From NCBI GenBank assembly GCA_013178095.1, contig JABLXK010000014.1, forward strand, positions 1 to 64,000: a stretch of DNA of 64,000 bases, read 5' to 3'. This document shows, in pieces, positions 44,508 through 64,000 of the stretch (positions are counted from its first letter, which is position 1; every line of letters begins with the position of its first letter). The DNA is from Anaerolineae bacterium. Its GTDB lineage: Bacteria; Chloroflexota; Anaerolineae; Anaerolineales; Anaerolineaceae. The notes under the pieces were generated by a model that ran no database searches, was not told the origin of the DNA, and was given only the letters and a program-made list of their open reading frames with translations. The position numbers and the translations under genes are program-made.

Positions 44508-44612
44508 AATGGCTGCCAGGATTAAAGACAGAAACAGGATTGGTTTTATGTATTGTTTAATTTGTTCGGCTTATTTAATGTTCATATAATCTTCTCCGGC
44601 TATAATTGCGTC

Positions 44613-45392
44613 ATGGATGCTTTATCGGTTGCGGAAATTCAATTGTTCATTCAGGCCTTCATCCAATCCTTTGAATCAGCCTACGACAGCAGTCACCGGC
44701 ATGTTGAGGGAACTGATATCTTTTATTATGGCCCCGAATTTTCGGCTTCGCCGCACGAGGTCGTGCCGTATCAATCCATCCTGTTCGGTTTGAATAAAAC
44801 TCCCGAAGAACTGCACGCGCTCGCCCGCACGAATAAATTTCTCGGCGACGGCTCCTATGCCCTCCAGGTATTTCACCGGGAATCCGATCTGGGCATGCTC
44901 AAACTGCGCTTCCAGGCTTTGGGTTATCAATATTTTCTGCCCAACCTGCTGCAATCCATTGAGCTGCCCGCCGCCGGAGAAGCCCCCGCGCTAGCCATCG
45001 ATCTGGTGAGCAATACCCGGCAGGTGGATCTTATCAATGCCACCTTTTCCAATTTCAAACCCTTTCCCGCGAAATTGGCCGGCGCGCAAGGCTGCAGCGC
45101 CTTTTTCGCCCAAATCGACCATCAAGCCGCCGGTTGGGGTTATCTGGTTTATCCCGATGCCGATACCGCTTACGTCGGCGGCATGTTCACAGCTCCGGCT
45201 TTCCGCCAGCGCGGTGTTGCCAGCGCCATCCTCAACCATATGCACCGCTTTGCTTTCGAAAAAGGAGTAGGAAAAATCCTGCTGGTACCCTCTTTCATGG
45301 CCTGGAACTTCTATAGCCGGCGTGGTTACCGCACGATCGCTCATTTTTCCACTTTTCTTCCTTCAGAAGAAAGCATGTCCGCCAATAAGTGA
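44613..45392 (+). CDS. GNAT-family N-acetyltransferase
   Basis: The C-terminal half of this 259-aa protein is a GNAT domain: AYVGGMFTAPAFRQRGVAS (acetyl-CoA loop QRGVAS), followed by AILNHMHRFAFEKGVGKILL and FYSRRGYR. The N-terminal half has no recognised motif. The acceptor is unknown. ATG 44613 is preferred to 44553, which lies upstream in AT-rich promoter-like DNA. Its last 52 nt overlap the convergent phosphopantetheinyl transferase gene. Confidence 0.8.
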   Translation: MDALSVAEIQLFIQAFIQSFESAYDSSHRHVEGTDIFYYGPEFSASPHEVVPYQSILFGLNKTPEELHALARTNKFLGDGSYALQVFHRESDLGMLKLRFQALGYQYFLPNLLQSIELPAAGEAPALAIDLVSNTRQVDLINATFSNFKPFPAKLAGAQGCSAFFAQIDHQAAGWGYLVYPDADTAYVGGMFTAPAFRQRGVASAILNHMHRFAFEKGVGKILLVPSFMAWNFYSRRGYRTIAHFSTFLPSEESMSANK

Positions 45393-46147
45393 GCCTCCAG
45401 CCGATAAAGCCGTGCCTCCCTGGCGCTTCCAAAAACTGCCAGCCATCCGCAGGTTTCCGCCGGCAGCGGCAATTTTCTCAAGCGGCACTCGCGGAATTCA
45501 AAGAAACAGCCATTCTCCCGCATGCCCCTGACGGTTCCGCTCGATATCGCTTCCAGTGTGTTCACCTGGCTGGGATGGATCGCCAGCCCGCATCCAGCGG
45601 CTTTAAGCAGGGCTTCCTTGGCGCACCAACAATCGAGGAATTGCGCGCCTTGCCGCTCGGTTGACGTCCCGATCCAGGCTGAATATTCTTCCAGCGAGAG
45701 GTATGTGCGCGCCAGGCGCTTCAAATCCAGCATCGCCTGGACTTTTTCAGCATCGATGCCCACCTCGCAGTCGCAGCCGAAAGCGATCAAACTTGCATTT
45801 TCTGTGTGGGTCAGGTTGAATGAAAGCCTTTGGGTTTGCTCCCGCCCAGCCAATTGCGGTTTGCCTTGCGCCCCAGCCTTGAATTCAATCGAAGCGGCCG
45901 ATTGCTGCAGCAACTTTGCCAGCAGGCAATGCAAAACCCCGTGGCTGAGTATAAATTCCTGCCTGGCTTTATCATTCAAAAATCGTTCGCGCCGGCTTTT
46001 TTCGTCGACTGACAGCAGCTTTCCCATTGGCCGCGTGAAGTGAGTAAACTCCTTCGGGGAAAATTGCCACACGGCAATTTCGCCCGGCTTCAATCCTGGC
46101 ACTGTATCGGGTATTTCCCAACCGCCCCGGATCAAATCATCGCTCAT
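45341..46147 (-). CDS. Sfp-type 4'-phosphopantetheinyl transferase
   Basis: This 268-aa protein has LSFNLTHTENASLIAFG, VGIDAEKV (Mg-binding Asp/Glu) and FLDCWCAKEALLKAAGCGL (W-x-x-KEA). The length fits the Sfp/Gsp class that activates carrier domains of secondary metabolism. It would load the two T domains of the NRPS encoded upstream, with which it overlaps by 11 nt, so the two are translated together. It is the last gene of the 45-64 kb block. Confidence 0.88.
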   Translation of the reverse strand: MSDDLIRGGWEIPDTVPGLKPGEIAVWQFSPKEFTHFTRPMGKLLSVDEKSRRERFLNDKARQEFILSHGVLHCLLAKLLQQSAASIEFKAGAQGKPQLAGREQTQRLSFNLTHTENASLIAFGCDCEVGIDAEKVQAMLDLKRLARTYLSLEEYSAWIGTSTERQGAQFLDCWCAKEALLKAAGCGLAIHPSQVNTLEAISSGTVRGMRENGCFFEFRECRLRKLPLPAETCGWLAVFGSAREARLYRLEAHLLADMLSSEGRKVEK

Positions 46148-49100
46148 TTTGCTGTTGCTGCTCTACGCTTTCAAGAGCCCGCCTGAGCGCCGCCGCCAGG
46201 CTGCGCACGTAAGGCTCGACCATGATGGAATTGTGATTGCCTTCGCAGGTATAAACGATCAGACCTCTCAATGCCAGCCGGCGCCATAGCGGTTCCGGCC
46301 GCACCATCTCGCTCCACTCCCGCTGCCTGGCTTTGAAATAGGTTACCTTGCCGGCGTATGGCCTGGTCACGTATGCATCCAACGCACGCTGGTTGATTGT
46401 CTCCACTTTTTGGAATGCCGGCGGCTTGCGCAACCAGCGCTCACGGTCGGCCTGCTCCTGCGGATTGACGTATTTCGTGCGGCGCGCAAACGCCCTCAAC
46501 CGGCCGCTCACGACGCCGATGGTTTTTTTGAAGTAATCGACTTTCTTGGGCAGGCTTAACCGCAGCCACTTTCCTGCGATGAATCCCAACCGCTCCACGC
46601 GGTCAAACGCAATCACCAATTTTCCGGGTTTGAGCTCCGGCGGCAGATTTTCCATCACCACCGTGTCGAACATCGCCAGCAGCGCCGTCTTCTCCCCGGC
46701 TGCGGATAGCTGCTGGGCCATTTCGTATGCCACTGTTCCGCCGAATGAATATCCTCCCAGGTAATAAGGTCCGTGCGGTTGTACTTCGCGGATTTCTTTC
46801 AGGTAAAGCGCGGCCATTTCCTCCACACTTTCCAAAGGCCTGGTCTTGCCGTCCACCCCCTGCGCGCGTAGTCCGTAAATGGGCCGGTCCAAATCCGCCA
46901 GGTAAGCGCTCAGGCTCCGGTAACTCAGGACGTCCCCGCCGATGGCATGCACCAAAAATATCGGGGGCTGGCTGCCGCCGTCTTTCAGTTTGACCAGGGA
47001 TTTCCACGAAGGATTCCAGCCGGAAGCGCTGATTGCTTTGGCCAAATCGCGGATAGTTGGGTTTTCCAATAGCGCCACCAGCGGCACGGAGACTCCAAAC
47101 CGGCTTTCAACCTCAGTCATCATGCGCGCGGCCAACAGCGAATGGCCGCCGATCTCAAAGAAGTTATCCTCCACGCCGATTGTTTGCCTGCCGAGCATCT
47201 CCTGCCAGATTGCCAGCATTTTCTCTTCTGCCGGGGTCTCGGGTCCCTTTTGCGTTTTTTGGCCGGTGACCTTGGCCCAATCCGGCTCGGGCAGGGCTTG
47301 TTTGTCGATTTTTCGGTTTGGAGAAAGCGGCAATTCCTTTAATATTTGATAAAAAGCTGGCTGCATGTATTTCGGCAGCCGGGTGTTCATGTGGCTGCGA
47401 AGCTGCACCTCATCCACGCTGCTGCCCTTGTCCGCCACCAGGTAAGCCACTAATTGCTCTGTCTTTGAAGGATCGCTGCGCTTGACTACCACCGCGTCGG
47501 AGATTCCTTTGAACTGCATCAAGGCGGTTTCTATCTCACCGGGTTCGATGCGAAAGCCCCTGATCTTGATCTGTTCATCGCTGCGCCCCAGGTATTCCAG
47601 CGCACCGTCCGGCCGCCACAGGACAATGTCGCCGGTTTTGTATACCCTGCCGCCCGCTCCGCCAATGGGATCAGGCAGGAAACGTTCCGCCGTCAGGTCC
47701 GGCCGGTTGAGGTAGCCCCGCGCCAGGCAATCGCCCCCGATGTACAGCTCGCCGGCCGCTCCCTTCGGCGCCAGCCGCATGCGTTCATCCAGCACGTAAA
47801 GCTTGACATTGTCGATCGCTTTGCCGATCGGGGCTTCGCGCTGGCCGTATTGCGCGCGTTCCTGCGCTGTCAACCGGCAGCGCGTGACCACGCAGGTGCA
47901 CTCTGTCAATCCGTAAGTGTTTTGCAAATCGATGGACTCGAATCCCAGGCGGTGCCAGGTGTTCAGGTGCGCCGGCGAAACCCTTTCCCCGCCGATGATG
48001 ATCATACGCAGCGTTTCCGGTAATTTTTCGCGGCTCTTCTCCAGGTACTGCACCAATTCCTGCCAGAAAGCCGTGGGCAGATCCAGTATGGTGAGACCCC
48101 ATTCGCGGCAGCGCTGCAGGAAATGCGGAATGGAATCCAGCATATCGGTTGAACGCAGCGCCAGCATGGCGCCGCTGCAAAGCGTCGGGAAGATTTCCTC
48201 CGCCGAGGTGTCGAAATTCAATGAAGCGAACTGCAGCATGCGGTCCCCGGGATGGATCCCGTATTGGCGCATAGTGCTGGTGGTGAAATTGACCAGCGGG
48301 CGGTGTTCCACCATCACGCCTTTCGGTTTTCCGGTGGAACCGGAAGTGTAGATGCAGTAAGCCAGATCTTCAGCTTTCACGCCGGCGGATATGGCTCCAT
48401 CCGCCTGGGCGTCGATCTCTTGCGCAGCACGGTCGAAGCGCACAACTTTTGCGGCAGCCGGTGGTAAATGGCTAAAGGTATCCGAATCGGTGAGGATGAT
48501 GGCCGGCTTCGCATCCTTCACAATATTCAGCAAGTGTTCCTGCGGGTAGGCTGGATCCAGGGGCAGGTACGCGCCGCCGGCTTTCAACACCGCCAGCATA
48601 GCTATGATGGTACTCTCAGTCTTGGGCAAATTCAGGCCCACCAGATTACCAGGCTGCAATCCCATGCCGATCAACCAATGGGCGGTTTGGTTGGCTTTGC
48701 GGTTGAGTTCGGCGTAAGTCAGGGTTTGCCCGTTGTGAAAAACGGCTGCCGCTCGCGGGGTTTCTTCAACTTGTCTCTCGAATAGTTCATGGATCGGGGT
48801 GTCCCGCGGATAAGGGGCGCTGCCCCCGCTCCACGCCAATAATTCGCGCTCTTCATCCGCCGTCAGGATCGAATATTCCGCGATGGATTTCCCGGGGCTT
48901 TGCATGGCTTGCTGAAGTATATATTTGAAATGCGCCGTCAATTCCTGAATGGTCGCTGGATTGAATAGATCGGTGTTGTATTCAAAGGCAAACTGCAATC
49001 CGCCTGCGTCCTGGTTAAATTCAACGTTCAAGTCGTAGGTGACCGTGCCGGTCTCGAAATCGAAGTATTTGAAAGTAATTTCTCCATCATTCGAGTTGCA

Positions 49101-51959
49101 TTTGGGAATGTTCACGAAATTGAAGACGATCCCAAACAGCGTTCTCTGGCTGCGGTCACGCTTCACCCGTGCGGCTTCGATGACCTTTTCGATGGGCGCT
49201 TCCTGGTTGGCTTGCGCTTCCATCACGGTTGCCGCGGCCCGCGCCGCCAGTTCGTTGAAATTCGGGCTGTCGGATAGATCCAGTTTAAGCACCACGCCGT
49301 TCACGAATGGTCCCATGATGCTTTCCACCTCCGCCAAAACACGGTTGGCGAAAAATGAGCCGATCTGGATAACCTGTTCATGGGTGTGGCGGGAAAGCAT
49401 AAGGCAGAAAGCGGATAGCAATATGGGGAACAGGGTTATGCTATGCCTGCGGCTGTAATCCGTCAATTGTTTGAATAAATTACCGTCGATTTTTAACCAA
49501 ACCGTATCCGCGTTGAAACTCTGCGCCAATGGACGAGCGTGGTCGCTGGGTAGTTGGGTGATCGCGGTTTCATCGGAGATTTTCTTTTTCCAATAATCCA
49601 GTTGAGGGCTGATGCGCCGCTCGAATTGCTCCGACTTTTGCCAGCAGGCAAAATCGGCATAAGTGTGAATGGCCGCTTTAGGGAAGTCCGCTTTGCGGGC
49701 ATTAAGCCGGTAGATTTCTGCCAGGTCGCTGCGGAAAATCTCGGCTGACCAGCCGTCCGTGATGATGTGGTGGATGATCACTGCCAGCGCGGCTTTCCGT
49801 GGACCGAGCTTATAAAGGATCAGCCGGAATGGCGGAGCTGTGTGGATATTAAAGACCTTGAGGTTCGAGGCTGTAATAGCCTGCTTCAATTCAACCTGCG
49901 GGTCTTTTTTGCCGGATAGATCCACCGTGCTCAACGGCAGGTCAATCTCCGGCAGCACTTCCTGGTAAGGCTGGCCGTCCTCTTCGAGGAACACCGTGCG
50001 CAGGATGGCATGTCGGGCGATCAGTTCGCGCAAACTGCGTATCAATATCTCATTATCCAACTCCCCCTCGATCAGCAGCGCGAAAGACGAATGCAGCGAA
50101 GGGTTATCCGGCTCACTCCGGGATAAGAACCACATCCGCTCCTGGCTGTAGGAAAGCGGGATCCTGTCGCTGTTGCAGCGCGGGATTTGCGTTCGGATGG
50201 CTGCGCTGTCGGTTGCCCGGGATTCATCCAACCTGGCTGCCAATTCCTGGATGGTCTCGCATTGGTAAAAATCAGGGAATGCAATCTCCAATCCGAACCG
50301 CTCGCGGATTCTGGCGAGTATGCTTGCCGCTTGCAGGGAATTGCCGCCCAGGTCGAAAAAACCGCTTTCCAAGCCGAAGGTATCGTCATGGAATATTTCC
50401 TGGAAGATGCGCAACAGGTCGGCTTCCCGGCTGCCCTGCGGGGGCATGATCTTTTGCTTTATCCCGCCGGCTGGGTCCGGCAGCAAGGCGCGATCGATTT
50501 TCCCGTTTTCAGTAACAGGGAATTGCACAACCTGCACGTAAGCTGCCGGCAGCAGGCTTTGCGGGAGCAAATCCTTTAAAAAAGATTTCAAATCGCGCAA
50601 ATCGATGGTTTGTCCGTGGCTGGCAGTGTAATAGGCGATGATTTGCTTTCTGCCCTGCCGTTCGCGCGCCACAACACAAGCCTGGTTGATTTGAGGGAAG
50701 CGGTTCAGCGCGGTTTCGATTTCGGATAACTCCACGCGAAAACCATCGATCTTGATTTGTTGGTCTTTCCTTCCGATAAATTCCAGGTTTCCATCCGGCA
50801 ATTCGCGGGCATAATCGCCGCTGCGGTAGCATCTCTCCTTTTTATCGAAAGGATCATTGACAAATTTCTCGGTCGTCAGCGCCGCGTCCGCGTAATATCC
50901 TCTTCCCACTCCCGCGCCGCAAATCAGGATTTCTCCTTCGTCTCCCTTTTTTACCGGTTTGAACTGCTCGTCGATCAAATGAACCTGGTAGCCGTCCACC
51001 GCTTTGCCGATCGGAGTGCGCCGCTCCGCTTCAATCGCGCTTATAAACTCGTAAAAAGTGGCGCAGATCGCGGTTTCGGTTGGGCCGTAACCATTGATGA
51101 TTTTCAGACCGGGAAGGATTTCCTTTAACGCCTGCAATGTCTTCTGCTGAATAGGTTCCACGCCCACCAGCAGCCGCTCCAGAACCGGTTGGGTCTCCAT
51201 TTTTTCGATTTCACGGATGAAATCGGCCAGCAGCAGCGGCGGCAGATAGGCGCTTTTGATACTCTGACTGGCAATATATCGCGCCAATTCCGGTGTCATT
51301 TCAGGATGGTCGATCAGGTGCAATGTCCCGCCGAAACAGAGCATAGCGTATATCTCCCAAACTGAAACGTCAAAGCCGATTGAAACCAGCGCGCTGCCGG
51401 ATAATTCGGGTCCGGCCGGAGCGATTTTCTCGAAACCGTTCAGCATCGCCATCACGTTGCGCTGCTCGATCATCACGCCCTTCGGCTTACCGGTGGAGCC
51501 GGATGTAAACATCACGTACGCCAATTGATTAGCGCTCCGTTCGGGCAGTTGCTGTCCGGACTCGTGCGCTTCTGAGATCGCTTTGCTGATCGGAACAGTC
51601 CGCCAAGAAGTTGTTTTTAACGGAACGGCGAATTCATCCTCCAGCACAACGCTTATTTTCGCGTCTTCGATAATCGCCTGTTTTCGCCCTTCCGGCCAAT
51701 TCGCGGGCAGCGGGACGTAAGCCCCGCCTGCCAGCATTACCGCCAGCATGCCCGTGATACTGTCAATCGATCGTGTTCCGTGAATTCCAACCAACTGCTC
51801 TTGCGTGAGGTGGAATTCTTTTCGTAAATATGCCGCCAACGCCCGAGCGCGCTGCGCCAATGCAGCGTAAGTGATATTCCGTTCATTGTGGATGATGGCA
51901 ATCCGTTCTGCATGCAGTTTTGATTGCTCGAGGAATCGATCGATCAGTAACGTACTCAT
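46137..51959 (-). CDS. Two-module nonribosomal peptide synthetase (A-T-C-A-T-TE)
   Basis: This 1940-aa protein has: A1 about 1-500 (FTSGSTGKPKGV at 151-162, YGPTET at 291-296, NGKIDR at 485-490); T1 with LGGNSL, Ser541; C about 600-1030 with HHIITDG at 730-736; A2 about 1055-1560 (YTSGSTGKPKGV; NRKIDK); T2 with IGGHSL, Ser1607; TE about 1665-1930 with GGYSFGG (Ser1738) and a GNH histidine near the end. There is no starter C or epimerase, so it should build and release a dipeptide or a related condensate. In A2, Glu1254 and Asp1293 fall at selectivity positions and suggest a basic side chain; A1 is unclear. The start overlaps the upstream glycosyltransferase stop (ATGA). Confidence 0.93.
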   Translation of the reverse strand: MSTLLIDRFLEQSKLHAERIAIIHNERNITYAALAQRARALAAYLRKEFHLTQEQLVGIHGTRSIDSITGMLAVMLAGGAYVPLPANWPEGRKQAIIEDAKISVVLEDEFAVPLKTTSWRTVPISKAISEAHESGQQLPERSANQLAYVMFTSGSTGKPKGVMIEQRNVMAMLNGFEKIAPAGPELSGSALVSIGFDVSVWEIYAMLCFGGTLHLIDHPEMTPELARYIASQSIKSAYLPPLLLADFIREIEKMETQPVLERLLVGVEPIQQKTLQALKEILPGLKIINGYGPTETAICATFYEFISAIEAERRTPIGKAVDGYQVHLIDEQFKPVKKGDEGEILICGAGVGRGYYADAALTTEKFVNDPFDKKERCYRSGDYARELPDGNLEFIGRKDQQIKIDGFRVELSEIETALNRFPQINQACVVARERQGRKQIIAYYTASHGQTIDLRDLKSFLKDLLPQSLLPAAYVQVVQFPVTENGKIDRALLPDPAGGIKQKIMPPQGSREADLLRIFQEIFHDDTFGLESGFFDLGGNSLQAASILARIRERFGLEIAFPDFYQCETIQELAARLDESRATDSAAIRTQIPRCNSDRIPLSYSQERMWFLSRSEPDNPSLHSSFALLIEGELDNEILIRSLRELIARHAILRTVFLEEDGQPYQEVLPEIDLPLSTVDLSGKKDPQVELKQAITASNLKVFNIHTAPPFRLILYKLGPRKAALAVIIHHIITDGWSAEIFRSDLAEIYRLNARKADFPKAAIHTYADFACWQKSEQFERRISPQLDYWKKKISDETAITQLPSDHARPLAQSFNADTVWLKIDGNLFKQLTDYSRRHSITLFPILLSAFCLMLSRHTHEQVIQIGSFFANRVLAEVESIMGPFVNGVVLKLDLSDSPNFNELAARAAATVMEAQANQEAPIEKVIEAARVKRDRSQRTLFGIVFNFVNIPKCNSNDGEITFKYFDFETGTVTYDLNVEFNQDAGGLQFAFEYNTDLFNPATIQELTAHFKYILQQAMQSPGKSIAEYSILTADEERELLAWSGGSAPYPRDTPIHELFERQVEETPRAAAVFHNGQTLTYAELNRKANQTAHWLIGMGLQPGNLVGLNLPKTESTIIAMLAVLKAGGAYLPLDPAYPQEHLLNIVKDAKPAIILTDSDTFSHLPPAAAKVVRFDRAAQEIDAQADGAISAGVKAEDLAYCIYTSGSTGKPKGVMVEHRPLVNFTTSTMRQYGIHPGDRMLQFASLNFDTSAEEIFPTLCSGAMLALRSTDMLDSIPHFLQRCREWGLTILDLPTAFWQELVQYLEKSREKLPETLRMIIIGGERVSPAHLNTWHRLGFESIDLQNTYGLTECTCVVTRCRLTAQERAQYGQREAPIGKAIDNVKLYVLDERMRLAPKGAAGELYIGGDCLARGYLNRPDLTAERFLPDPIGGAGGRVYKTGDIVLWRPDGALEYLGRSDEQIKIRGFRIEPGEIETALMQFKGISDAVVVKRSDPSKTEQLVAYLVADKGSSVDEVQLRSHMNTRLPKYMQPAFYQILKELPLSPNRKIDKQALPEPDWAKVTGQKTQKGPETPAEEKMLAIWQEMLGRQTIGVEDNFFEIGGHSLLAARMMTEVESRFGVSVPLVALLENPTIRDLAKAISASGWNPSWKSLVKLKDGGSQPPIFLVHAIGGDVLSYRSLSAYLADLDRPIYGLRAQGVDGKTRPLESVEEMAALYLKEIREVQPHGPYYLGGYSFGGTVAYEMAQQLSAAGEKTALLAMFDTVVMENLPPELKPGKLVIAFDRVERLGFIAGKWLRLSLPKKVDYFKKTIGVVSGRLRAFARRTKYVNPQEQADRERWLRKPPAFQKVETINQRALDAYVTRPYAGKVTYFKARQREWSEMVRPEPLWRRLALRGLIVYTCEGNHNSIMVEPYVRSLAAALRRALESVEQQQQNER

Positions 51960-53089
51960 TTTGCCTGCCTCAATGGAAGAAATGGTTCAATGGATTTGCG
52001 CATCGTTTTTCCGACTGCATTCCAATTGTAGCGTTCCTCGGCCAACCGCCGGCTGATTTTTCCAAATTGCGCCCGTTTTTGCTTGTCGCTCAACAAACTG
52101 TCCAATGCTTGCGCCAGGTTGTCCACATCGCCCGGCTGCACTAAAAAACCGTTCTTGCCGTTGCTGACCATGTCCGGCAAAGCGCCAATTTCGGTCGCCA
52201 CAATCGGCAGCGCGTATGCCATGGCTTCCACGTAAGCCACTCCGAAAGGCTCGCTGCGGCTGGGCATGCAGAAGATCGTTGCTTCCCGGTAATAACGCTT
52301 CAATTCCTCCAGTGGCACGCGCCCCAAAGTAATGACGCCCGCCAGGTTGGTTTTCACGCGCGCGCCTGCGATCACCAGGGTCGCATCGGAATGTTTACGG
52401 CGCGCTTGTTCAAAAGCTTTCAGCAATTCCGGTCCGCCCTTGCGTTCCCAGTCCAACCCCACAAACAAAATGTTTTTTGCGGAGTAATCTTTCTTTTCCG
52501 CATCGATCGCTTCGGTAGGGGTGTTGGCGCCGGCGTAAACGCAGCTCACCCGTTCTGCCGGAATGCCGTATTGTTCGTTCAGCGAGCGCGATATGTTGCT
52601 GCTGCGGGTGAAAATCCGTTCGGCGTTCATGTATATATCTTTTTCTCGGCTGATCCATTCAGCTGAATAGAGCTGGACTTTCAGGTGCGGGGAATATTGC
52701 AGGTTCGCCAGTTGGGTGTGATCGGTGTATACAAAGTGCGGGATGCCCTCCAGGTGCGTGTCGAAGATCGACTGGAGCTGAAAGGTGAAAGCGATGTCGT
52801 CTCTTCCCCGGCCGATTTCCCGCGCCATGCGCCTGACGCGGTCAAACAGGAAAATGGTGCGGAAGAAAGCAGCCTTGAAATCCAGCCTGCCCCTGAGAAT
52901 ATCGAATCCGTATTGCCGCAGCACTTCCAGCGTATTCCGAATCAACAGCCATTTATCGGCTTTGATCCGCTGCGCAAGGGTGACGATTTCCAGTTCATAC
53001 TCCGGAAAAGTCTCCCGCAGCAGCTTTTCCACGCTGACGGCAATCGGCGGGCTGGGCCAGATGCGAAAATGCAGGATTTTCTTACGCAT
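51956..53089 (-). CDS. Glycosyltransferase family 4 (paralogue of the next gene upstream)
   Basis: This 377-aa cytosolic glycosyltransferase has a GT-B fold. The donor site region is NILFVGLDWERKGGPELLKA and FCMPSRSEPFGVAYVEAMAY (E-x7-E), followed by GALPDMVSNGKNGFLVQPGD. It is a close paralogue of the 53082-54221 product, with the same block order. ATG 53089 gives KKILHFRIWP; ATG 53101 is an alternative; the longer frame to 53503 lies inside the neighbour. It overlaps the upstream gene by 8 nt and the NRPS by 4 nt. Confidence 0.85.
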   Translation of the reverse strand: MRKKILHFRIWPSPPIAVSVEKLLRETFPEYELEIVTLAQRIKADKWLLIRNTLEVLRQYGFDILRGRLDFKAAFFRTIFLFDRVRRMAREIGRGRDDIAFTFQLQSIFDTHLEGIPHFVYTDHTQLANLQYSPHLKVQLYSAEWISREKDIYMNAERIFTRSSNISRSLNEQYGIPAERVSCVYAGANTPTEAIDAEKKDYSAKNILFVGLDWERKGGPELLKAFEQARRKHSDATLVIAGARVKTNLAGVITLGRVPLEELKRYYREATIFCMPSRSEPFGVAYVEAMAYALPIVATEIGALPDMVSNGKNGFLVQPGDVDNLAQALDSLLSDKQKRAQFGKISRRLAEERYNWNAVGKTMRKSIEPFLPLRQAK

Positions 53090-54221
53090 TCTCCCTTTCA
53101 TTACCTGCAAGGATCGGTTGAATCGCCGTTTGCATGATACTCCCCACGTTTTTCCAGGTATAGCGTTCGCGCGCCAATTGGTACCCGGCTTTGCCGAAAC
53201 GCCGGCAAAGTCCGCTGTCGGCCAGCAGGCATTCGAGCGCGGAAGCCAATCCGTCGATATCGCCCGGTTCCACCATGAATCCATTCTTTCCGTCCTCGAC
53301 AAAGTCGGGAACAGCGCCGCTGCGCGGCGCCACCAGCGGCAGGCCGTATGCCATGGCTTCGACAAACACCACGCCGAATGGTTCCAGCCGCGTCGGCAGG
53401 CAGAAAATGGACGCCTTCTGATAATACGCCGCCACCTGTTCCACCGGCACCCGGCCGGCAATTTCCACGTTGGGGCAGTCGATTTTCGGCGCGCAGCCCA
53501 CAATCGTCAACGTCGCTTGCGGATAATCCCGCAGCACTTTTTGAAAAGCGGCTGCCAGGTCCGGCCCGCCTTTGCGTTCCCAGGCTACGCCCACGAACAG
53601 GATATTTTGGGTTTTGTAATCCTTTTGATCAAAGTCGACTTCCCGCAGCGGCGTGTTGCAGCCCGCGTAAGCGATCACCGCTTTTTCCGATGGGACATGG
53701 TATTGCTCCAGCAGCGAGCGCCGGATGTGGCTGCTGCGCACGAAGACCAAACGCGCGTTGCGGTAGGTCTCTTCTTCCAGCTTGCGCCAGGCCGCCGAAT
53801 AGAGTTTGTCCTCGGTATAGCCCGGAGTGTAGGTATTCGCCAGGTTAGTGGTATCGGTGTAGATGAAATTCGGCAGCCCCGGGCAGGCCGCGTCGAAATC
53901 CGCCTGGGTCTGGATGGTGAAGAGATAGTTTCCCTCCGACGCGTACCGGTTCACCAGCCGGCGTATCTGCCGGTGCATGTAGGTTGTCGCCCAGAATCTC
54001 CGCCAGACTTTCCAGTACCCCAGCAATTGGCGTAATGGGTATTCGCTGAATAAATAAATAATATTGAGCGCCAGGATTCCCGGATGAGATCGGACCAGGC
54101 TTTTGATATTCAACAGGTCGATCGGGCGGCCCGGAAAAACTTCGGCCAGGGCCGCCCGCAATCCTTCCACGTCCGGGTGGTTGAACTTGTAAACAAGCAG
54201 GATTCTTTTTGTATCCGTCAT
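53082..54221 (-). CDS. Glycosyltransferase family 4
   Basis: This 379-aa GT-B enzyme has NILFVGVAWERKGGPDLAAA, FCLPTRLEPFGVVFVEAMAY (E-x7-E) and GAVPDFVEDGKNGFMVEPGD. It is arranged in tandem with its paralogue downstream, a likely gene duplication with changed sugar or acceptor use. Opening residues KRILLVYKFNHPDVEGLRAAL show no signal peptide. It starts 11 nt after the BcsB-like gene ends. Confidence 0.85.
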   Translation of the reverse strand: MTDTKRILLVYKFNHPDVEGLRAALAEVFPGRPIDLLNIKSLVRSHPGILALNIIYLFSEYPLRQLLGYWKVWRRFWATTYMHRQIRRLVNRYASEGNYLFTIQTQADFDAACPGLPNFIYTDTTNLANTYTPGYTEDKLYSAAWRKLEEETYRNARLVFVRSSHIRRSLLEQYHVPSEKAVIAYAGCNTPLREVDFDQKDYKTQNILFVGVAWERKGGPDLAAAFQKVLRDYPQATLTIVGCAPKIDCPNVEIAGRVPVEQVAAYYQKASIFCLPTRLEPFGVVFVEAMAYGLPLVAPRSGAVPDFVEDGKNGFMVEPGDIDGLASALECLLADSGLCRRFGKAGYQLARERYTWKNVGSIMQTAIQPILAGNERENA

Positions 54222-54232
54222 GCTAGCGCCGC

Positions 54233-56482: not shown

Positions 56483-56517
56483 CGCGCACCTCTTCCAAAA
56501 TAGATTGATAAAAATGA

Positions 56518-57669
56518 TCACGATCTTCTTTTCGCTTTCTCCCAGGCGGCGTCCTGTCCTTTGCGGACCTGGCGGAAAAATCCGCGCAGCGTCGCCAGGT
56601 TGCTGTCCACCAGAAAAACCGGCAGATACAGCGCTTTGCCAATTCCTTTAAAATTGAACCTTCTGCCCAAAACTGCCAGCAGGTAAAAAATAACCTGCGC
56701 GGCCAGCAGCCATGTTACCCAATCCCTTTCCTGCGGGTAGAAGAATGCCAGGGAAATGTTCGCTATCAAAGCCCCCATCATAGCGAATGGAATGGCCAGG
56801 CGTAAATATTTATGCGAGATGATCTGCCAGACCGCCAGCGGGTCATTCCAGGGCAGCCAGCCCAGCGAGCGGCTCACGGCCTGAAAGCGCCCGGCGCTGA
56901 TCCGCGCGCGGCGTTTGACCTCGTCCTCCGCGCTCTGCGATACCCTTTCCCAGGATTCGGCCGCGGGAACGTATACAACCCGGAATCCCGACCGCAGCAC
57001 GTGCAGCAGGATATAGAAATCGTCATTGACCACATCAGCGGGGAATTGCGGGAACAACTCCCGCCGCACTGCCAGGATCTCTCCGGCCGCCGCCGTGCAG
57101 GTGTGCAGCCGGCTCTCGTTGCGCTTGATCCATGATTCATATTTCCAGTACAAGCCTTCCGAGGCCGACAGGCTGTCGCCTTCTTTTTCAACGTGCTTGG
57201 CCCCGCTGGCCGCCCCCACCCGCGTATCGGTGAAGGGTTGCACCAGCGATTTTAAGGCGTACGCCGGGTAGAGGTTATTGGCGTCCGAGAGCACGATGAT
57301 CTCCCCCCCGGCTGACTTTGCCGCGCGCGCCACCGCCGCCACCTTTCCGCGCCGCTCCTTCGAATAGCTCAGCAGCACTTTCCGCTCTTTAAAAGCTTCC
57401 GCGATCGCCGCGGTCGCGTCGCTTGATCCGTCGGCGGCCACGATCACCTGCAGCTTCTCCGGCGGGTAATTCAACTCGGCTGTGTTTTGCAATTTTTTCT
57501 CCAGCACTGCTTCTTCATTGTAAGCGGCGATGATCAGCGTCACCGCCGGCAATGTGGAAATTGCGTATTCTTCTTCGGGTTTGAATCGAGCCAGGCCGGC
57601 GGTCATCAGCGGATAACCGATGTAAACATAGAAAAGTAAAACCGCACTGAGCCAGAAAAGGATTTCCAT
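56518..57669 (-). CDS. Membrane glycosyltransferase family 2 (processive-type)
   Basis: This 383-aa protein has an N-terminal membrane helix (ILFWLSAVLLFYVYIGYPL) and a GT-A domain with LIIAAYNEEAVLEKKL, VAADGSSDATA, LSDANNLYP and DVVNDDFYILLHVLRSG. It has a QxxRW-like region (RRARISAGRFQ) and two or three C-terminal helices. It resembles biofilm or hyaluronan-type synthases and probably pairs with the BcsB-like protein encoded next. ATG 57669 overlaps the upstream stop (TGATG). Confidence 0.85.
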   Translation of the reverse strand: MEILFWLSAVLLFYVYIGYPLMTAGLARFKPEEEYAISTLPAVTLIIAAYNEEAVLEKKLQNTAELNYPPEKLQVIVAADGSSDATAAIAEAFKERKVLLSYSKERRGKVAAVARAAKSAGGEIIVLSDANNLYPAYALKSLVQPFTDTRVGAASGAKHVEKEGDSLSASEGLYWKYESWIKRNESRLHTCTAAAGEILAVRRELFPQFPADVVNDDFYILLHVLRSGFRVVYVPAAESWERVSQSAEDEVKRRARISAGRFQAVSRSLGWLPWNDPLAVWQIISHKYLRLAIPFAMMGALIANISLAFFYPQERDWVTWLLAAQVIFYLLAVLGRRFNFKGIGKALYLPVFLVDSNLATLRGFFRQVRKGQDAAWEKAKRRS

Positions 57670-58817
57670 CAGTACGCCCCCTTTCCTGCCAGCTCGCGGT
57701 ACAAGCCGGCCAGTTTCTCGGCCGTTTCGTCGAGGGCGTATTCGCGGCAAATGCGTTCCCGCGCGGCGGCGCCCATGCGTGCGCGATCCGCCGGATGGCC
57801 AATTAGGAACATGATTGCCTTCTGGATTTGCTCCTCGTTTCCCGGCGGTATCAACAATCCGTTCTTGCCGCTATCAATCAGGTCGGCTGCCGCCCCCACG
57901 CGGGTGGCGGCTGTTGCCAGACCGCAAGACATGGCTTCCAGCATGGCATTCGATAATCCTTCGGTCAAGGATGGCAGAACGAAAGCGTCCGCCGCCTGAT
58001 AATATTGCCGCGTTTCGGCTGCGAATCCGCCGAAAATGACCTGTTTCCCGGCCAGTTCGCGCAATTTGCATTCCATCTCGCCGCTTCCCAAAATCAGCAG
58101 GTGCGCGCCGGGGTCCTGTTCGGCAATAGCTTTCCAGGCTTGCAGCAGCAGGTCAAGTCCCTTTTCCGGCGCCAACCGTCCGCCGTAGACGCATAGAAAA
58201 CCTTGCGGCAGCTTCAGTGTCCGGCGCAGCCGGGTTTTCTCCGCCTCGTTCACCGGCGCGTAAAGTTCAACGTCCACCCCGTTGGGTATATACTGGCATT
58301 GATGTTTGGGAATCCCCTCGTCTTCCAGTTCCCGCTCGATCTCGCGGCTGATAACGATGAAGCGGTCCACGTTTGTTCTCAGGCGCCGGATGCGCAGCTC
58401 TCCGCCCTGCCGGTTGTGCAGTTTATCCAGGTCGCCCAATTTTCCGCCGCGCAGCACCTTCACCACCAGCGGTTTTTTCCATATTTTCTTTGCCAGAATG
58501 CCCAGGTCGCCGGGCGAGAGCAGTTCGTGCGCATGCAGGATATCCGCGTCGATCCGCCGGATTCTCATCAGGCCGAAAAGGATGAAACAGAATGCCGCCA
58601 GCGCTTTGGGCTGCGGCGCGGGCACGCGGTAGACTGGCGTCTGTTCGATGATCTCGAACGCGCTCAAGCCGGGGTAACGCCGCGTGATGATCACCGGTTC
58701 GATGTCCCTTGCCCGCAGCCGGCGGCACACGGCAGCCAGTTGCTTTTCCGCCCCGCCCAGGCGCGGTAAATAAGTCTGGATGATCATCGCCACGCGCAGC
58801 TTCCCGGCTTTATTCAT
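57669..58817 (-). CDS. Glycosyltransferase family 4
   Basis: This 382-aa GT-B enzyme opens RVAMIIQTYLPRLGGAEKQL, with the donor site CVYGGRLAPEKGLDLLLQAW and PSLTEGLSNAMLEAMSCGLA. It adds a sugar to a lipid-linked repeat unit by family expectation; specificity is unknown. It overlaps both neighbours by a few nucleotides, showing operon membership. Confidence 0.85.
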   Translation of the reverse strand: MNKAGKLRVAMIIQTYLPRLGGAEKQLAAVCRRLRARDIEPVIITRRYPGLSAFEIIEQTPVYRVPAPQPKALAAFCFILFGLMRIRRIDADILHAHELLSPGDLGILAKKIWKKPLVVKVLRGGKLGDLDKLHNRQGGELRIRRLRTNVDRFIVISREIERELEDEGIPKHQCQYIPNGVDVELYAPVNEAEKTRLRRTLKLPQGFLCVYGGRLAPEKGLDLLLQAWKAIAEQDPGAHLLILGSGEMECKLRELAGKQVIFGGFAAETRQYYQAADAFVLPSLTEGLSNAMLEAMSCGLATAATRVGAAADLIDSGKNGLLIPPGNEEQIQKAIMFLIGHPADRARMGAAARERICREYALDETAEKLAGLYRELAGKGAY

Positions 58818-59925
58818 GCTGCACCTCGCGGTAAATTTCCATCAGTTGCGCCAGCCAGGCCGCCGGCGAATAACGCGCTTTCACACAGCGCCTGGCGTTC
58901 TCTCCCAGCCGTTTTCTCTCGCCGGCGTCTTTCGCCAGGTGTGCGATCTCGTCTGCCAATAGGTCAATCCTGCCTGCCGGCAGCACACGGCCGCAGGCTT
59001 CCTGGATCACCTGTCGGTTGTCGCCCACGTCCGTTGCCACCACTGCCAGCCCGCTCAGCATAGCTTCCAGCACCGCCAGCGATTGGCCTTCGAAATGGGA
59101 AGCGCCGGCGTAAATATCGCTGGCAGCCAGCAGCGCCGGAACGTCGTCCCGTTCCCCTGCGAAAAAGATCGCGCCCTGTTGATGGTTTGCGGCGGCTTGC
59201 GCGCGCAGGTCATCCAGCAAGTATCCCTTGCCTGCAATCAGCAGCCTCATCGGCAGGTCGCATTGCTCCCGCGCCAACCTGAAGGCCTGGATTAAATCGG
59301 AGTAACCCTTCTCCGGTATCAACCGCCCAACCGAGATGACCAAAATTCCCTTGCCGTCCGGCAGGAATTCAGCGCGCAGCGCCCGTATCGTTGAAGCGGG
59401 CACTTCCGGCAGGTCCGGCACCGGGTTGGGCACCACTTCCAGCGCGCGCTTTCCGAATCGCGGCTGTTGGACGCGCGCCACTGTGTAGCCGCAGGCAATG
59501 ATCCTGCGGGAATGGCGCTTTAAAACAATGGTTTCCAGCCAGGTGCGGTAGGGTTTATAGGTGCGCAGATGCACGCTGGCGTTGTGCAAAGAAGCCACGC
59601 TGGGTATTCCCGCCCGTCGGGCCGCGGTTGTACCCAGGATGTTGGCGTAATTCAATTGCGTGTGCACTACGTCGGCTCTGCTTTCGGCTAACACTTCCCG
59701 CAATTGGCGGTAAGCGCGCCGGTCATAGAGTGTGCGCAGCGGGATGTTGCTGACCGGGATATCGCGTTCTTTTAGATCGCGGTAGATGGGCGATTCGGTT
59801 TCCGCGGTGGATAACGAGATGATTTCGGTTTCATGCCCTCCGCGCAGCATTTCCTGCGCGAATACGCTCATCAGGCGCTGCGCGCCTCCTACTTTGAGGG
59901 AATCAATCACCTGCAGCACTTTCAT
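58810..59925 (-). CDS. Glycosyltransferase family 4
   Basis: This 371-aa GT-B enzyme opens KVLQVIDSLKVGGAQRLMSV, with VISVGRLIPEKGYSDLIQAF and ASHFEGQSLAVLEAMLSGLA. The family is clear; the sugar is not. It sits 1 nt after the flippase gene and overlaps the next GT4 by 8 nt. Confidence 0.85.
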   Translation of the reverse strand: MKVLQVIDSLKVGGAQRLMSVFAQEMLRGGHETEIISLSTAETESPIYRDLKERDIPVSNIPLRTLYDRRAYRQLREVLAESRADVVHTQLNYANILGTTAARRAGIPSVASLHNASVHLRTYKPYRTWLETIVLKRHSRRIIACGYTVARVQQPRFGKRALEVVPNPVPDLPEVPASTIRALRAEFLPDGKGILVISVGRLIPEKGYSDLIQAFRLAREQCDLPMRLLIAGKGYLLDDLRAQAAANHQQGAIFFAGERDDVPALLAASDIYAGASHFEGQSLAVLEAMLSGLAVVATDVGDNRQVIQEACGRVLPAGRIDLLADEIAHLAKDAGERKRLGENARRCVKARYSPAAWLAQLMEIYREVQHE

Positions 59926-59926
59926 C

Positions 59927-61390
59927 TCAGCTTCCCCTTAAAGCGGAAATGATTTTGCCCAGTGTGTCCCGCATGCGCTCGGGGCCTTGCAGCCAAAGCG
60001 CCCCGCCATACACCATCATCCCGCTGAAAACCGCCGCCAACAGCCGCGCCAACGCGGGCGCCTGCCGCAGCAGCGCCAGCACCCCCAACACGGCCGCGCT
60101 CATCGCCAGCCCGCTCAGGATGCCGGGCTGGTATTGGACCAGAATATCTTTGACCTTGATCTGGAACATTCTTGCCGCAACCACCAGACTCATCACGCCC
60201 GATATCAGCGCCACGCCGGCTTGCACCCATGCCACGGCGGTGATGGATTGCGTGCGCATCAACGCAATCCATAACGCCGGCAGCAGGATAATCAGGCGCG
60301 CGATGGTCAGGTAGGTCAGCACTTCCGGTTTGCCCTGCGCCTTGTAGAAGCTGCCGGCATTCCGGAAAAGAGAAAGCAGCAGCGCGTAGATCGCAATTCC
60401 CCGGATAACCGGTATGGCTTCCACCCATTTATCGGTGAAGAAGGTCATCACGAAAGGCTCGGCGGTCAAGGCAATGCCCAGCCCAATGGGAATGGTGATC
60501 GTCGACACGTAGTTCAACGAACGCACGAAATTCCGGTTCAGGTTTTGGGCGTTATCCTTCATCTTGACGTAAACCGGGAAGATCACTTCCGAAACGATGC
60601 GCGCGAATTGGGTCAGAACCATATCCGGGATGCGGAAACCCAGCGTGTAAACGCCCAATGCTTCCGCCCCCAGGTAATGGCCGATCAACAGATAATCAGC
60701 ATTGTTCAGCAGGTTAGCCAGCGAATCCAGCAGGACAATGTTCAAACCGTATTTCAGCATCGAACCGGCAATTTTGCGCGAGAAACGCAAGGAAGGCTTC
60801 CAGGGATTGACGATCTTTGCCACTGCCACCGAAACCGTGTTGGCGATCACCTGCCCCCACACCTGCGACCAGTATCCGAAACCCATCGCCGCCATCCCCA
60901 CCGACGAAATGCCTTTGGCAAAGGCGTAACTGACTTCAGGGATGAATTTCTTGCGAAAATCTAGCTTTTTGGCCAGGTAGATGGCATTCACGTTTCCTAA
61001 AGCCGAGATGGGATAAACCAGCACCATCATACGCACTACCGGGATGGCGCGTTCGTCGTTGAAATAAGCCCCAATCAGCGGCGCGGCCAGCCAGGTGACC
61101 GCAAACATCCCGATGCCCACTGCCAGCCCCAGCCAAAAGGCAGTATCGGCTGTTTCGGGTTCGTCTTTATGATAGATCAGTGCCGGCCCAATGCCCAGCC
61201 CATTTAAAGCATCCAGGAAACTGGTGACGATGAACGCGTAACCGACCACGCCGAAATCCGCCTTGGAGAGCAGGCGCGCCAGGATGATGGTGCTGATGAA
61301 CACCAGCAGCTTTCCGGTGTATACCGAGAGGTACGACCAGAACGTCCCCCGGATCGTGGCTTTCGCGAAACTCGTCCCGCCGGATTCCAT
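59927..61390 (-). CDS. wzx: Wzx-like oligosaccharide flippase (MOP superfamily)
   Basis: This 487-aa protein has about 12-14 membrane helices, with the opening GTFWSYLSVYTGKLLVFIST and IILARLLSKADFGVVGYAFI typical of lipopolysaccharide or EPS exporters of the WzxC/MurJ-like group. It would flip lipid-linked repeat units to the outer face. Its stop lies 1 nt before the GT4 gene, and its start overlaps the stop of the Wzy-like gene (61390). Confidence 0.86.
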   Translation of the reverse strand: MESGGTSFAKATIRGTFWSYLSVYTGKLLVFISTIILARLLSKADFGVVGYAFIVTSFLDALNGLGIGPALIYHKDEPETADTAFWLGLAVGIGMFAVTWLAAPLIGAYFNDERAIPVVRMMVLVYPISALGNVNAIYLAKKLDFRKKFIPEVSYAFAKGISSVGMAAMGFGYWSQVWGQVIANTVSVAVAKIVNPWKPSLRFSRKIAGSMLKYGLNIVLLDSLANLLNNADYLLIGHYLGAEALGVYTLGFRIPDMVLTQFARIVSEVIFPVYVKMKDNAQNLNRNFVRSLNYVSTITIPIGLGIALTAEPFVMTFFTDKWVEAIPVIRGIAIYALLLSLFRNAGSFYKAQGKPEVLTYLTIARLIILLPALWIALMRTQSITAVAWVQAGVALISGVMSLVVAARMFQIKVKDILVQYQPGILSGLAMSAAVLGVLALLRQAPALARLLAAVFSGMMVYGGALWLQGPERMRDTLGKIISALRGS

Positions 61391-62910
61391 TAGATATTCT
61401 TCCCTTTACTTTGCAGACTGGCGCGGCGGCTGATTTTCAACCGCTGCTGGAGAAGCTGGCGTGTGAACAGCATTTCCTCATTCCGGGCGGCCTGCTGCGT
61501 TGCCAGGCCGATTCCGATCAACAGCCAGAGGTTGCGCGGGTATGCACCATGGATGAACAAAGCCGCGGCCAGGTAACCCATAAAACCGATTTGAAAAGCC
61601 AATGCCAGGTCGGCGTATTCGTCTTGAGATATCTTCTGGAAAATCTTCTTTCCGTTGATCAGGCTCCTGAACGTGGAATACAAAACAAAGGCGAACATCA
61701 ACAAGCCCAAAATGCCCTGTTCAGCCAGCACCTCGATGTACAGGCTGTGCGCTGAACGCTCAGTCCGGCGCGGATCCAGCCCCAGCCTCATCGAGTATTT
61801 CAGGTAGTTGGCGGCGTAATTTTCGTAGCCGATTCCCAGGATTGGCTTATCCAGGAACATTTGGATGCCCACTGCATATTCGCTCATCCGGCCGCGCAGG
61901 GATACCTCGCCGCGCACGTCCGCTCCTGAAAATGGCAGGTATTCCAGGATCGTCTGGATGCGCTCGAAATACGTCGCCGGCAGGAATGGAACCAGCAGCA
62001 GCAGGATCAGCAGACCGCACAGCACCGCCACCAGGGGCGGCTTGCGGACAACCACGATCAACGCCAGAACGCCGCACAAGGCCAGGAATCCGCCGCGCGA
62101 GAAAGTGAAAATGACCGTCAGGAAACTGGCGGCCAAAGCCCACCCCGCCAGCAATTTCAGGACCGGTTTTTTCTCGTACAACACACGGTTCAACGCGATG
62201 GGGACGATCACCACCATGACCTGGGCGAAAAAGTTGGGGTCGCCGAAAGTACCCATGATGCGGTATCCTTCCGTTCCGCTGACGATATTCATCAGCCGCG
62301 ATTCCGCCAGCCCCCAGTAATCGTTGGTAAAAGAACTTGTCAGGTATTGGATCACACCGATCGTACCCAGCAGGATTCCGCTGAACAGGATTCCCCAGGC
62401 GGCTGTGCGGTAGGAATCCCTGGATTGGATCAACAAGATCAGGATGACCGCAATGATCGCGTCTTTTAGGAAGGTCAGCAGCCCTTCCTGCGCGCGCGTG
62501 GGATCGCCTGCGTAGAACAGCGACAAAAAGATGACCAACCCGTACGCCGCGATTGTCGCCAAACCCGGCAGCCAATTTTGCGGGCGTTCCCCGTTCAATA
62601 CCCAGCGCAGGAAAATCAGGACGGCCAGGAAAGCAATGAAAGGCTGCGCGATGGAAGGCGCACCGTAATAGTGCACCGCCACGTCCGAAATACGCGCGTA
62701 GGTCATGGCTACCAGGGTGAACAAGCCCCAGTTGATCTTCCAAACCGCAGCCACCAGCACCACGATCCCGATCAGCATCAGGACGTACAATCCCGCGTCG
62801 TGAATGCGCGTTGCCAGGATCGCCCCGCCGATCCCGATCGCGATTGCGATCGCGCCGAATACCGGGGATAACCAATTGAAAGAAGAGCGGGATTGACCCG
62901 AAGGCTGCAT
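61390..62910 (-). CDS. O-antigen ligase/Wzy-like polymerase
   Basis: This 506-aa protein has about 12 helices and a large outer loop near residues 330-400 with GRMSEYAVGIQMFLDKPILG, GIGYENYAANYLKYS and SAHSLYIEVLAEQGILGLL, the Wzy_C pattern. It would polymerise repeat units or ligate the chain. The presence of a Wzz-like gene upstream favours polymerase. Confidence 0.85.
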   Translation of the reverse strand: MQPSGQSRSSFNWLSPVFGAIAIAIGIGGAILATRIHDAGLYVLMLIGIVVLVAAVWKINWGLFTLVAMTYARISDVAVHYYGAPSIAQPFIAFLAVLIFLRWVLNGERPQNWLPGLATIAAYGLVIFLSLFYAGDPTRAQEGLLTFLKDAIIAVILILLIQSRDSYRTAAWGILFSGILLGTIGVIQYLTSSFTNDYWGLAESRLMNIVSGTEGYRIMGTFGDPNFFAQVMVVIVPIALNRVLYEKKPVLKLLAGWALAASFLTVIFTFSRGGFLALCGVLALIVVVRKPPLVAVLCGLLILLLLVPFLPATYFERIQTILEYLPFSGADVRGEVSLRGRMSEYAVGIQMFLDKPILGIGYENYAANYLKYSMRLGLDPRRTERSAHSLYIEVLAEQGILGLLMFAFVLYSTFRSLINGKKIFQKISQDEYADLALAFQIGFMGYLAAALFIHGAYPRNLWLLIGIGLATQQAARNEEMLFTRQLLQQRLKISRRASLQSKGKNI

Positions 62911-62919
62911 GCCTCTCTC

Positions 62920-63987
62920 CTATATCCTTTCCGACATGGCTTTCAGCGCTTTCAATGCGATTTCGTCGCTATCTGCGCCCTTGGTAAACTCGGCCACGCC
63001 CACCGCCGGCCTGAGCGCGATCTTCTCGTCCAACGAAGCCAGCGCCATCGGCGGGGTGAGCGCTTTCAACAAGCGCCCTTTGATCGTTTCGGCGGCTTTC
63101 ACCGGTGTATCCGGCAGTAACAGCGAAAACGTGGATTCATCCCAGCGCCCGACGCTGTCGTTGCCGCGCAGCCCGGCCTTCAACACGCCCACCACGTCGG
63201 TGAGCAGCCGGTTCAGCACCTGCTGCGGCAGCGTGTCGTAAAACTCCGTCAACCCTTCCAGTTTGATCATGACCAGCGAGAACACGCCTCCTTCGCCGGC
63301 GGATTTTTCGGTTTGCTCCGCCAGCAAAGTTTCGAAGTGTTCGCGGTTGAACGCGCCGGATTGAGAATCGACCAGCCGGCGCTGCCGGTAGGCTTCCAGC
63401 GGGATGCGCAGTTGATCGCGCAGGATTGCCAGGATCACCCCGACCAGCAAACCCAGCACACCGCCCAGCGAGAGGTCGCGCGCCGGCTTGGGGCTGATCG
63501 GTTCGGTCGGAACGACCGCCGCATCGAGGATATTCACCTCGTAAACCTGGTAGAGGTTTCGCATATAGTCGATGCCCGTGCGCGCCACGCCGTTCGCCCA
63601 TTTGGCAGTGATTTCCGCGTTCGGCCCAGTGACGTAGATCTCCAGGACGTTGGAATCCGGAAGTACGACCGTGCTCTGGCTGTATTCCGCGATTTCATCC
63701 TCCGTTAGGTTCAGCGTGTTGATGAAGGCTTGCTGATTGAACTCGCTGTCGAACACGTCCGCGTAGGTCGTGACGATAGATGAGTTATCCAGCGAAGAAA
63801 GGCTGCTGACAAAATCCTTGCCCGCGAAGCTCTCCGCGTTGGGCAGCACGATCATGCGCGTGGTGGCCTCGTAGATCGGCGAGGAAAACATGTCGATGAT
63901 CAGGATCACGTTCAGCGTCGCCAGCACCGTCAGCACGATTATCCACCACCCTTTTTGGATCATTCGAAAATACATTTTGATATTCAT
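62920..63987 (-). CDS. Wzz-like chain-length protein fused to a degenerate GGDEF domain
   Basis: The Wzz domain of this 355-aa protein runs from helix WWIIVLTVLATLNVILIIDM, through an outer part, to helix GGVLGLLVGVILAILRDQL near residues 175-195. A cytoplasmic domain (about 205-355) follows the diguanylate-cyclase plan (DSQSGAFNREHF; GVFSLVMIKLEGLTEFYD). In it the GGDEF site reads RWDES (281-285), so cyclase activity is unlikely. It may instead sense nucleotide or bind partners. It is the first complete gene of the block; the operon may begin beyond the right edge. Confidence 0.8.
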   Translation of the reverse strand: MNIKMYFRMIQKGWWIIVLTVLATLNVILIIDMFSSPIYEATTRMIVLPNAESFAGKDFVSSLSSLDNSSIVTTYADVFDSEFNQQAFINTLNLTEDEIAEYSQSTVVLPDSNVLEIYVTGPNAEITAKWANGVARTGIDYMRNLYQVYEVNILDAAVVPTEPISPKPARDLSLGGVLGLLVGVILAILRDQLRIPLEAYRQRRLVDSQSGAFNREHFETLLAEQTEKSAGEGGVFSLVMIKLEGLTEFYDTLPQQVLNRLLTDVVGVLKAGLRGNDSVGRWDESTFSLLLPDTPVKAAETIKGRLLKALTPPMALASLDEKIALRPAVGVAEFTKGADSDEIALKALKAMSERI

Positions 63988-64000
63988 CTCTCACCTGCCA

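Follow-up and report, generated by a model that had tools for sequence, protein, structure and literature searches.

What is an NRPS doing at the end of an operon for exopolysaccharide (EPS), and is it tied to the polymer that the operon is thought to make? The question is raised by a window of 64,000 nucleotides from the draft genome (2.94 Mb) of a sediment Pelolinea species (Anaerolineaceae, Chloroflexota), for which an initial annotation had proposed that the tight coupling of the two reflects an amino acid- or dipeptide-decorated polysaccharide or glycolipopeptide, which would be a new type of surface polymer. The pairing of these genes in Pelolinea and in other families suggests a lysine-decorated surface polysaccharide.

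Layout of the operon

Between 45341 and 63987 there are eleven open reading frames, identified by Pfam and NCBIfam profiles and all on the minus strand (Table 1), and neighbouring genes either overlap or sit no more than about 11 bp apart, in keeping with the overlaps and tiny gaps first described. The overlap of the NRPS start with a GT4 stop is also there, the ATG at 51959 and the stop of GT4d at 51956 sharing the 4 bp ATGA, while the PPTase gene overlaps the 3' end of the NRPS by 11 bp and is met, at the 3' end of the operon, by a convergent GNAT gene (44553-45392). The genes of the block therefore stand as annotated, but its end at 63987 does not, as inspection of the region to the right of 64000 finds that a GT4, a priming phosphoglycosyltransferase (PGT) and a pseudo-GGDEF gene carry the operon on, with overlaps continuing up to contig position ~66782. 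Co-transcription of the block is suggested by spacing and not by signals, since a scan for promoters and terminators gave nothing in excess of shuffled sequence.

Table 1. Genes of the EPS operon, in the window and past its edge
Feature	Position	Strand	Evidence and remarks
PPTase, Sfp/HetI-type	45341..46147	-	PF01648 49.6 bits, PF22624
NRPS, 1940 aa, A1-T1-C-A2-T2-TE	46137..51959	-	Pfam domains
GT4 glycosyltransferase d	51956..53101	-	Glycos_transf_1 119 bits
GT4 glycosyltransferase c, paralogue of d	53082..54221	-	Pfam
BcsB-like extracytoplasmic protein, C-terminal hydrophobic segment	54233..56521	-	PF03170 170 bits; ATG near 56482 the likelier start
GT2, PgaC/IcaA-like, hydrophobic ends	56518..57672	-	PF13641 82 bits; TIGR03937 below cut-off
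GT4 glycosyltransferase b	57669..58817	-	Pfam
GT4 glycosyltransferase a	58810..59925	-	Pfam
Wzx-type flippase (Polysacc_synt_3)	59927..61390	-	PF13440 254 bits
Wzy_C family protein (polymerase or ligase)	61390..62910	-	PF04932 81.7 bits
Wzz/GNVR chain-length protein with pseudo-GGDEF fusion	62920..63987	-	PF02706, PF13807, PF00990
GT4, 3' end in window	63984..64000, on to contig position 65216	-	4-bp overlap with wzz
WcaJ-type priming PGT	contig 65213-65932		next operon gene past window edge
Pseudo-GGDEF gene	contig 65904-66782		after PGT

A Wzx/Wzy EPS pathway set (priming PGT, Wzx, Wzy and Wzz) is found together at the locus, and also in Pelolinea submarina. The families behind the names Wzz and Wzy hold, but Wzz carries in addition a degenerate GGDEF domain, and the product called Wzy belongs to a Wzy_C/O-antigen-ligase family; PF04932 spans both activities, and the protein may be a polymerase or a ligase. 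In the GGDEF fold of Wzz the GGDEF motif is replaced by DESTF and the I-site, RGND, is kept, as it is in all 25 of the sequences that cover the site (with K-G-N-D in two). It is likely that this fusion is a c-di-GMP-sensing co-polymerase, with PelD as its nearest analogue (PMC2170427). The pseudo-GGDEF domain occupies the position in Wzz where other co-polymerases bear a tyrosine kinase.

Upstream of the operon, at contig ~66.9-77.8 kb (L032:6888-17837), HD-GYP, GGDEF, sensor kinase and response-regulator genes are apparent by inspection, a regulatory island that is probably tied to c-di-GMP. A GHL15 glycosyl-hydrolase-like protein (42743-43924 in the window) adjoins the EPS operon here, in P. 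submarina, in Levilinea and in the genomes G343 and G014, and is possibly a matrix hydrolase that belongs to the EPS system. BcsB is normally the partner of cellulose synthase, and it recurs in Wzx/Wzy-type operons across the order, often with a PgaC-like GT2, making a hybrid EPS layout.

The NRPS and its predicted substrate

By Pfam the NRPS has a pair each of AMP-binding and PP-binding domains, a single Condensation and a single Thioesterase domain, the T domains being found again with PF00550, and on inspection of the sequence the motifs HHIITDG, GGNSL/GGHSL and GYSFG and the TE histidine are intact. With a PPTase above the cut-off of PF01648 adjacent to it and overlapping it, everything that marks a modular NRPS (A, T, C and TE domains with intact motifs, and a cognate PPTase) is present, in agreement with the two-module enzyme with TE and its own PPTase that had been called from the sequence. 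It holds the sole condensation domain found by a genome-wide search, and a search for a second NRPS in the same genome found none.

The pocket codes read DVWYLGGICK for A1 and DTEDIGTCVK for A2, the last K of these and of the G343 and G330 codes below being assumed and not read, and both are identical in P. submarina. The code of A1 has no clear match. For A2 the structures of poly-ornithine synthetase are informative, as in these Asp at position 1 and Glu at position 3 bind two amines with the assistance of Thr at position 7, and the size of residue 2 tunes the chain length, with alanine in lysine enzymes (PMC10522769). Asp1, Glu3, a small residue 2 and Thr or Ser at position 7 are all found in A2 of the window and of P. 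submarina, and in a related unit (DAENIGSIVK) of G343, a genome from another family; the code of a further unit, from G330, is DTESIGTAVK. Published lysine signatures include DAESIGSV of bacitracin synthetase 2 (BacB-Lys) and DGEDHGTV of the pyoverdine lysine module (PMC3207962), and DTEDIGTCVK and DAENIGSIVK share 4-6 of 8 residues with them. A sequence search also retrieved 7wew_A, a cationic homopolymer synthetase. As the codes of A2 and G343 fit the diamino-acid pattern, it is a well supported prediction that their substrate is a cationic amino acid, most likely lysine, with arginine and ornithine as the alternatives.

Conservation and recurrence among relatives

The cultured congener P. 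submarina MO-CFX1 (G003, NZ_AP018437.1) has the entire block and its flanks (GHL15, GNAT, pseudo-GGDEF and PGT) collinear with the window, and the GT4 that spans the window edge has its orthologue there in the corresponding place. Protein identity between the two is 58% for the NRPS, 40% for the PPTase, 65% for BcsB, 60% for GT2, 63%, 68%, 62% and 60% for GT4d, GT4c, GT4b and GT4a, 79% for Wzx, 73% for Wzy and 81% for Wzz. The gaps within the P. submarina block are -32, -4, -4, 22, -11, 1, -8, -1, 9, 8, -11, -4 and 6 bp, and the 4-bp ATGA overlap of NRPS and GT4d is kept identically. With order and overlap both retained, the NRPS counts as a lasting part of the EPS operon in this genus, which supports the tie to the polysaccharide genes that was first proposed.

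In both other congeners a match to the condensation domain or to BcsB is absent. The syntenic site of G001 holds the pseudo-GGDEF gene, the PGT, the GT4, a wzz-TE scar, an intact PPTase and a broken GHL15, and the scar (L168:9251-9760, G001:C80) fuses wzz codons 1-~87 to the final ~45 codons of the NRPS TE (GKHYSVLDEP...). The simplest reading seems to be that a single deletion took out wzz-to-NRPS as a unit, in which case the ancestor would already have had the NRPS beside the PPTase; G001 is a draft of 100 contigs, which leaves a small chance that the scar is a misassembly.

Outside the genus the picture is different. Of 400 genomes sampled from the order, 90 have the Wzz-pseudoGGDEF protein, often at loci where BcsB, Wzx, Wzy and GTs are arranged much as here, yet for most of these EPS loci, that of the cultured Levilinea saccharolytica included, there is no NRPS in the stretch examined. 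Conservation of the combined block, to which the initial annotation had looked for confirmation, therefore holds for Pelolinea, where the NRPS and EPS genes are together or both missing, but not for most relatives, which have the EPS block without the NRPS, and since they do the NRPS appears dispensable for making the polymer.

Other lineages do, however, have NRPSs in operons of this type. In G343 (LaPlata_bin-0303) the gene next after BcsB, which it overlaps by 4 bp, encodes an A-T-TE protein of 929 aa, and GHL15 comes after it as in Pelolinea; the upstream half of the operon is on a separate contig, broken off within a GT2, and the join is presumed. L213, from a MAG labelled Doudnabacteria whose binning is doubtful, has an NRPS of the form C-A-T-TE placed between Wzz and BcsB, and in G014 an NRPS-like A-T-TE protein lies just upstream (at the operon 5' end) of pseudo-GGDEF-PGT-GT4, with Wzz-Wzy-Wzx-GT-BcsB and FemAB-like genes further on. 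Relatives that carry NRPS and polysaccharide genes apart had been named as evidence against the tie, and the sister module of G330 is indeed away from EPS genes, beside a UbiA-like gene (by inspection), but in P. submarina and G343 the two are linked. A multi-module NRPS near BcsB (L212) was left uncounted, as a distance of ~3 kb and a sulfotransferase-like gene separate it from the BcsB upstream, and so was an NRPS 23 kb from Wzz in G253, which is on the opposite strand.

About 45 A-T-TE units were listed in the 400 genomes, along with 95 places of Wzz-GGDEF, and proximity of NRPS and EPS genes is seen in 3 lineages against 0.13 expected (P about 3e-4), by a rough Poisson treatment that takes the genomes as even and independent, with a mean genome size of 3.4 Mb, and is a guide only. 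Chance adjacency of the two is ruled out by the collinearity in P. submarina together with this recurrence.

In a tree of A-T-TE units, module 2 of the window, P. submarina and G343 form a clade (97/94) with G330 just outside it (97/96), and L213 and G014 are placed elsewhere; an A-only tree that includes class-wide Lys modules groups the window, P. submarina, G343 and G330 with moderate support (92/94). The pocket codes of L213 and G014 differ from the lysine-type codes of Pelolinea and G343. By their placement in the A-T-TE tree, a single NRPS lineage is taken to occupy the EPS operons of two families, and there were probably at least two further recruitments of NRPSs into EPS operons, in L213 and G014. 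At the EPS locus of G014 (G014:C12, L036:16527-19737) there are three FemAB-like genes by inspection, and the code of its A-T-TE, IDDLIGY, is without the usual substrate Asp; together these are possibly another route of aminoacylation.

Possible function and comparison with known systems

For Pelolinea we infer the substrate, the transfer and the acceptor as follows. A conserved type of Anaerolineae EPS operon, with a priming PGT, GT4s, Wzz-pseudoGGDEF, a Wzy_C protein, Wzx, GT2 and BcsB, would in its Pelolinea version have acquired an NRPS together with its activating PPTase. A cationic amino acid, in all likelihood lysine, would be loaded by module 2 and an amino acid X by module 1, and the C domain would join the two to give X-Lys. 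In the cytoplasm, ahead of flipping by Wzx, the TE (or a partner enzyme) would then transfer this dipeptidyl group to a lipid-linked repeat unit or sugar precursor, at an amine or a hydroxyl. The EPS would thereby come to bear cationic amino acids as covalently attached side groups. Where there is a lone A-T-TE, as in G343, the TE could give the aminoacyl group to the acceptor or another enzyme could collect it from the carrier. Transfer is favoured because hydrolysis by a lone lysine A-T-TE would be futile, and the place of the NRPS, last in an EPS operon, makes the repeat-unit sugar the obvious acceptor. Neither an acceptor nor a transferase partner for the NRPS product was identified, nor was an amino-sugar pathway. 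We give close to an even chance to the proposal that the NRPS loads a cationic amino acid (lysine, or X-Lys in Pelolinea) and that a polysaccharide precursor receives it from the TE or a partner. The interpretation first offered is supported in part, as to the stable linkage of NRPS and EPS genes; attachment of the product to the polymer, and with it a new type of surface polymer, is a plausible proposal. The wider proposal, that this NRPS line is a polysaccharide-modifying transferase which places lysyl or dipeptidyl groups on lipid-linked EPS repeat units before export, and does so separately in several Chloroflexota lineages, is put forward more tentatively.

The main rival reading is that the NRPS produces a free X-Lys dipeptide or diketopiperazine (a signal, metallophore or antimicrobial), hydrolysed or cyclised by the TE and merely co-expressed with a biofilm polymer. 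An A-T-C-A-T-TE enzyme with a PPTase of its own has all that is needed to make a dipeptide by itself, genes for biofilms and for secondary metabolites often share their regulation, and Lys-type A domains are also at work elsewhere in the class in ordinary NRPSs that have no link to EPS (15 stretches around class-wide Lys-type modules, several of them short, had no EPS gene). A free dipeptide is nevertheless less likely, as the sister enzyme that takes this slot in G343 has only one A-T-TE, from which simple hydrolysis would give no peptide, and no dedicated exporter or tailoring gene was found with the NRPS.

The position of the NRPS differs among lineages and most loci are without one, which is what might be expected of a gene that landed at a permissive operon end and is functionally unlinked to the polymer; its GC resembles that of neighbouring genes, which argues neither for nor against recent arrival. 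Such a passenger is hard to reconcile with frames and motifs that are intact despite about 40% protein divergence between two species, with a conserved stop-start overlap and with an occurrence in at least three lineages, and is thus quite improbable. The tandem paralogues GT4c and GT4d, directly upstream and overlapping each other and the NRPS, might also point to a separate glycosylated peptide or lipopeptide, of the kind of mycobacterial glycopeptidolipids, made by these three and only sharing an operon with the EPS genes. This is very doubtful, given that the operon is without a starter condensation domain, an acyl ligase or a lipid transporter, that in G343 the NRPS comes directly after BcsB with no GT4c/GT4d between, and that L099 and L202 have GT4d-like genes after BcsB where no NRPS was seen.

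If the product does end on the polymer, this would be a templated, programmable placing of amino acids or peptides on surface polysaccharides, by a route distinct from the tRNA-dependent (FemAB, MprF) and Dlt routes. Were the EPS cationic, that would matter for the adhesion of filamentous Anaerolineaceae in digesters, granules and sediments, and as cultured P. submarina MO-CFX1 has the block intact, the question is open to pure-culture work.

The locus is like Wzx/Wzy-dependent EPS operons in having a priming PGT, GTs, a flippase, a Wzy_C protein and a Wzz-type co-polymerase, all adjacent, and unlike them in BcsB, the PgaC-like GT2, the pseudo-GGDEF of Wzz and the terminal NRPS and PPTase; a literature search of partial coverage found no Wzx/Wzy or BcsB operon described as containing an NRPS. 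Bacterial cellulose (Bcs) was rejected, as the GT2 is a PgaC-like protein of 384 aa with no PilZ match and there is no BcsA-type synthase next to BcsB. Exosortase-A (XrtA) EPS clusters carry the acyl-CoA ligase PEP_1, and thus have AMP-ligase chemistry within EPS clusters. The NCBIfam model nearest to the Wzy_C protein is TIGR03097, below cut-off, but the operon is without an exosortase or stand-alone ligase and has a full NRPS in place. In mycobacterial glycopeptidolipid loci, too, an NRPS is found with glycosyltransferases and the product is a surface molecule, whereas here there is no acyl ligase or MmpL, with Wzx/Wzy/BcsB polymer genes instead.

In the Dlt system an adenylating enzyme and a carrier bring D-Ala to teichoic acids, also a surface polymer, whereas here there is a TE-ended multidomain NRPS, predicted to use a lysine-like amino acid instead of D-Ala. 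A Dlt-type system was rejected, since the operon proteins scanned have no match to the DltB MBOAT or DltD, and what DltA models recognise is no more than a generic A domain. The Asp1/Glu3 pocket logic for diamino acids is shared with epsilon-poly-lysine synthase and PosA (PMC10522769). An epsilon-poly-lysine synthetase, which needs A-T and a six-TM tandem C1-C3, was also rejected, as A-T-C-A-T-TE has no C-terminal membrane polymerising domain. In streptothricin synthesis an amino acid is joined to an amino sugar by NRPS parts. The same is described for lincosamide synthetase (PMC4351081). Both resemble the present locus in a carrier-bound amino acid that is headed for a sugar, but they make small antibiotics with separate condensation proteins, whereas the acceptor proposed here is a precursor of a polymer, and release falls to a TE domain.
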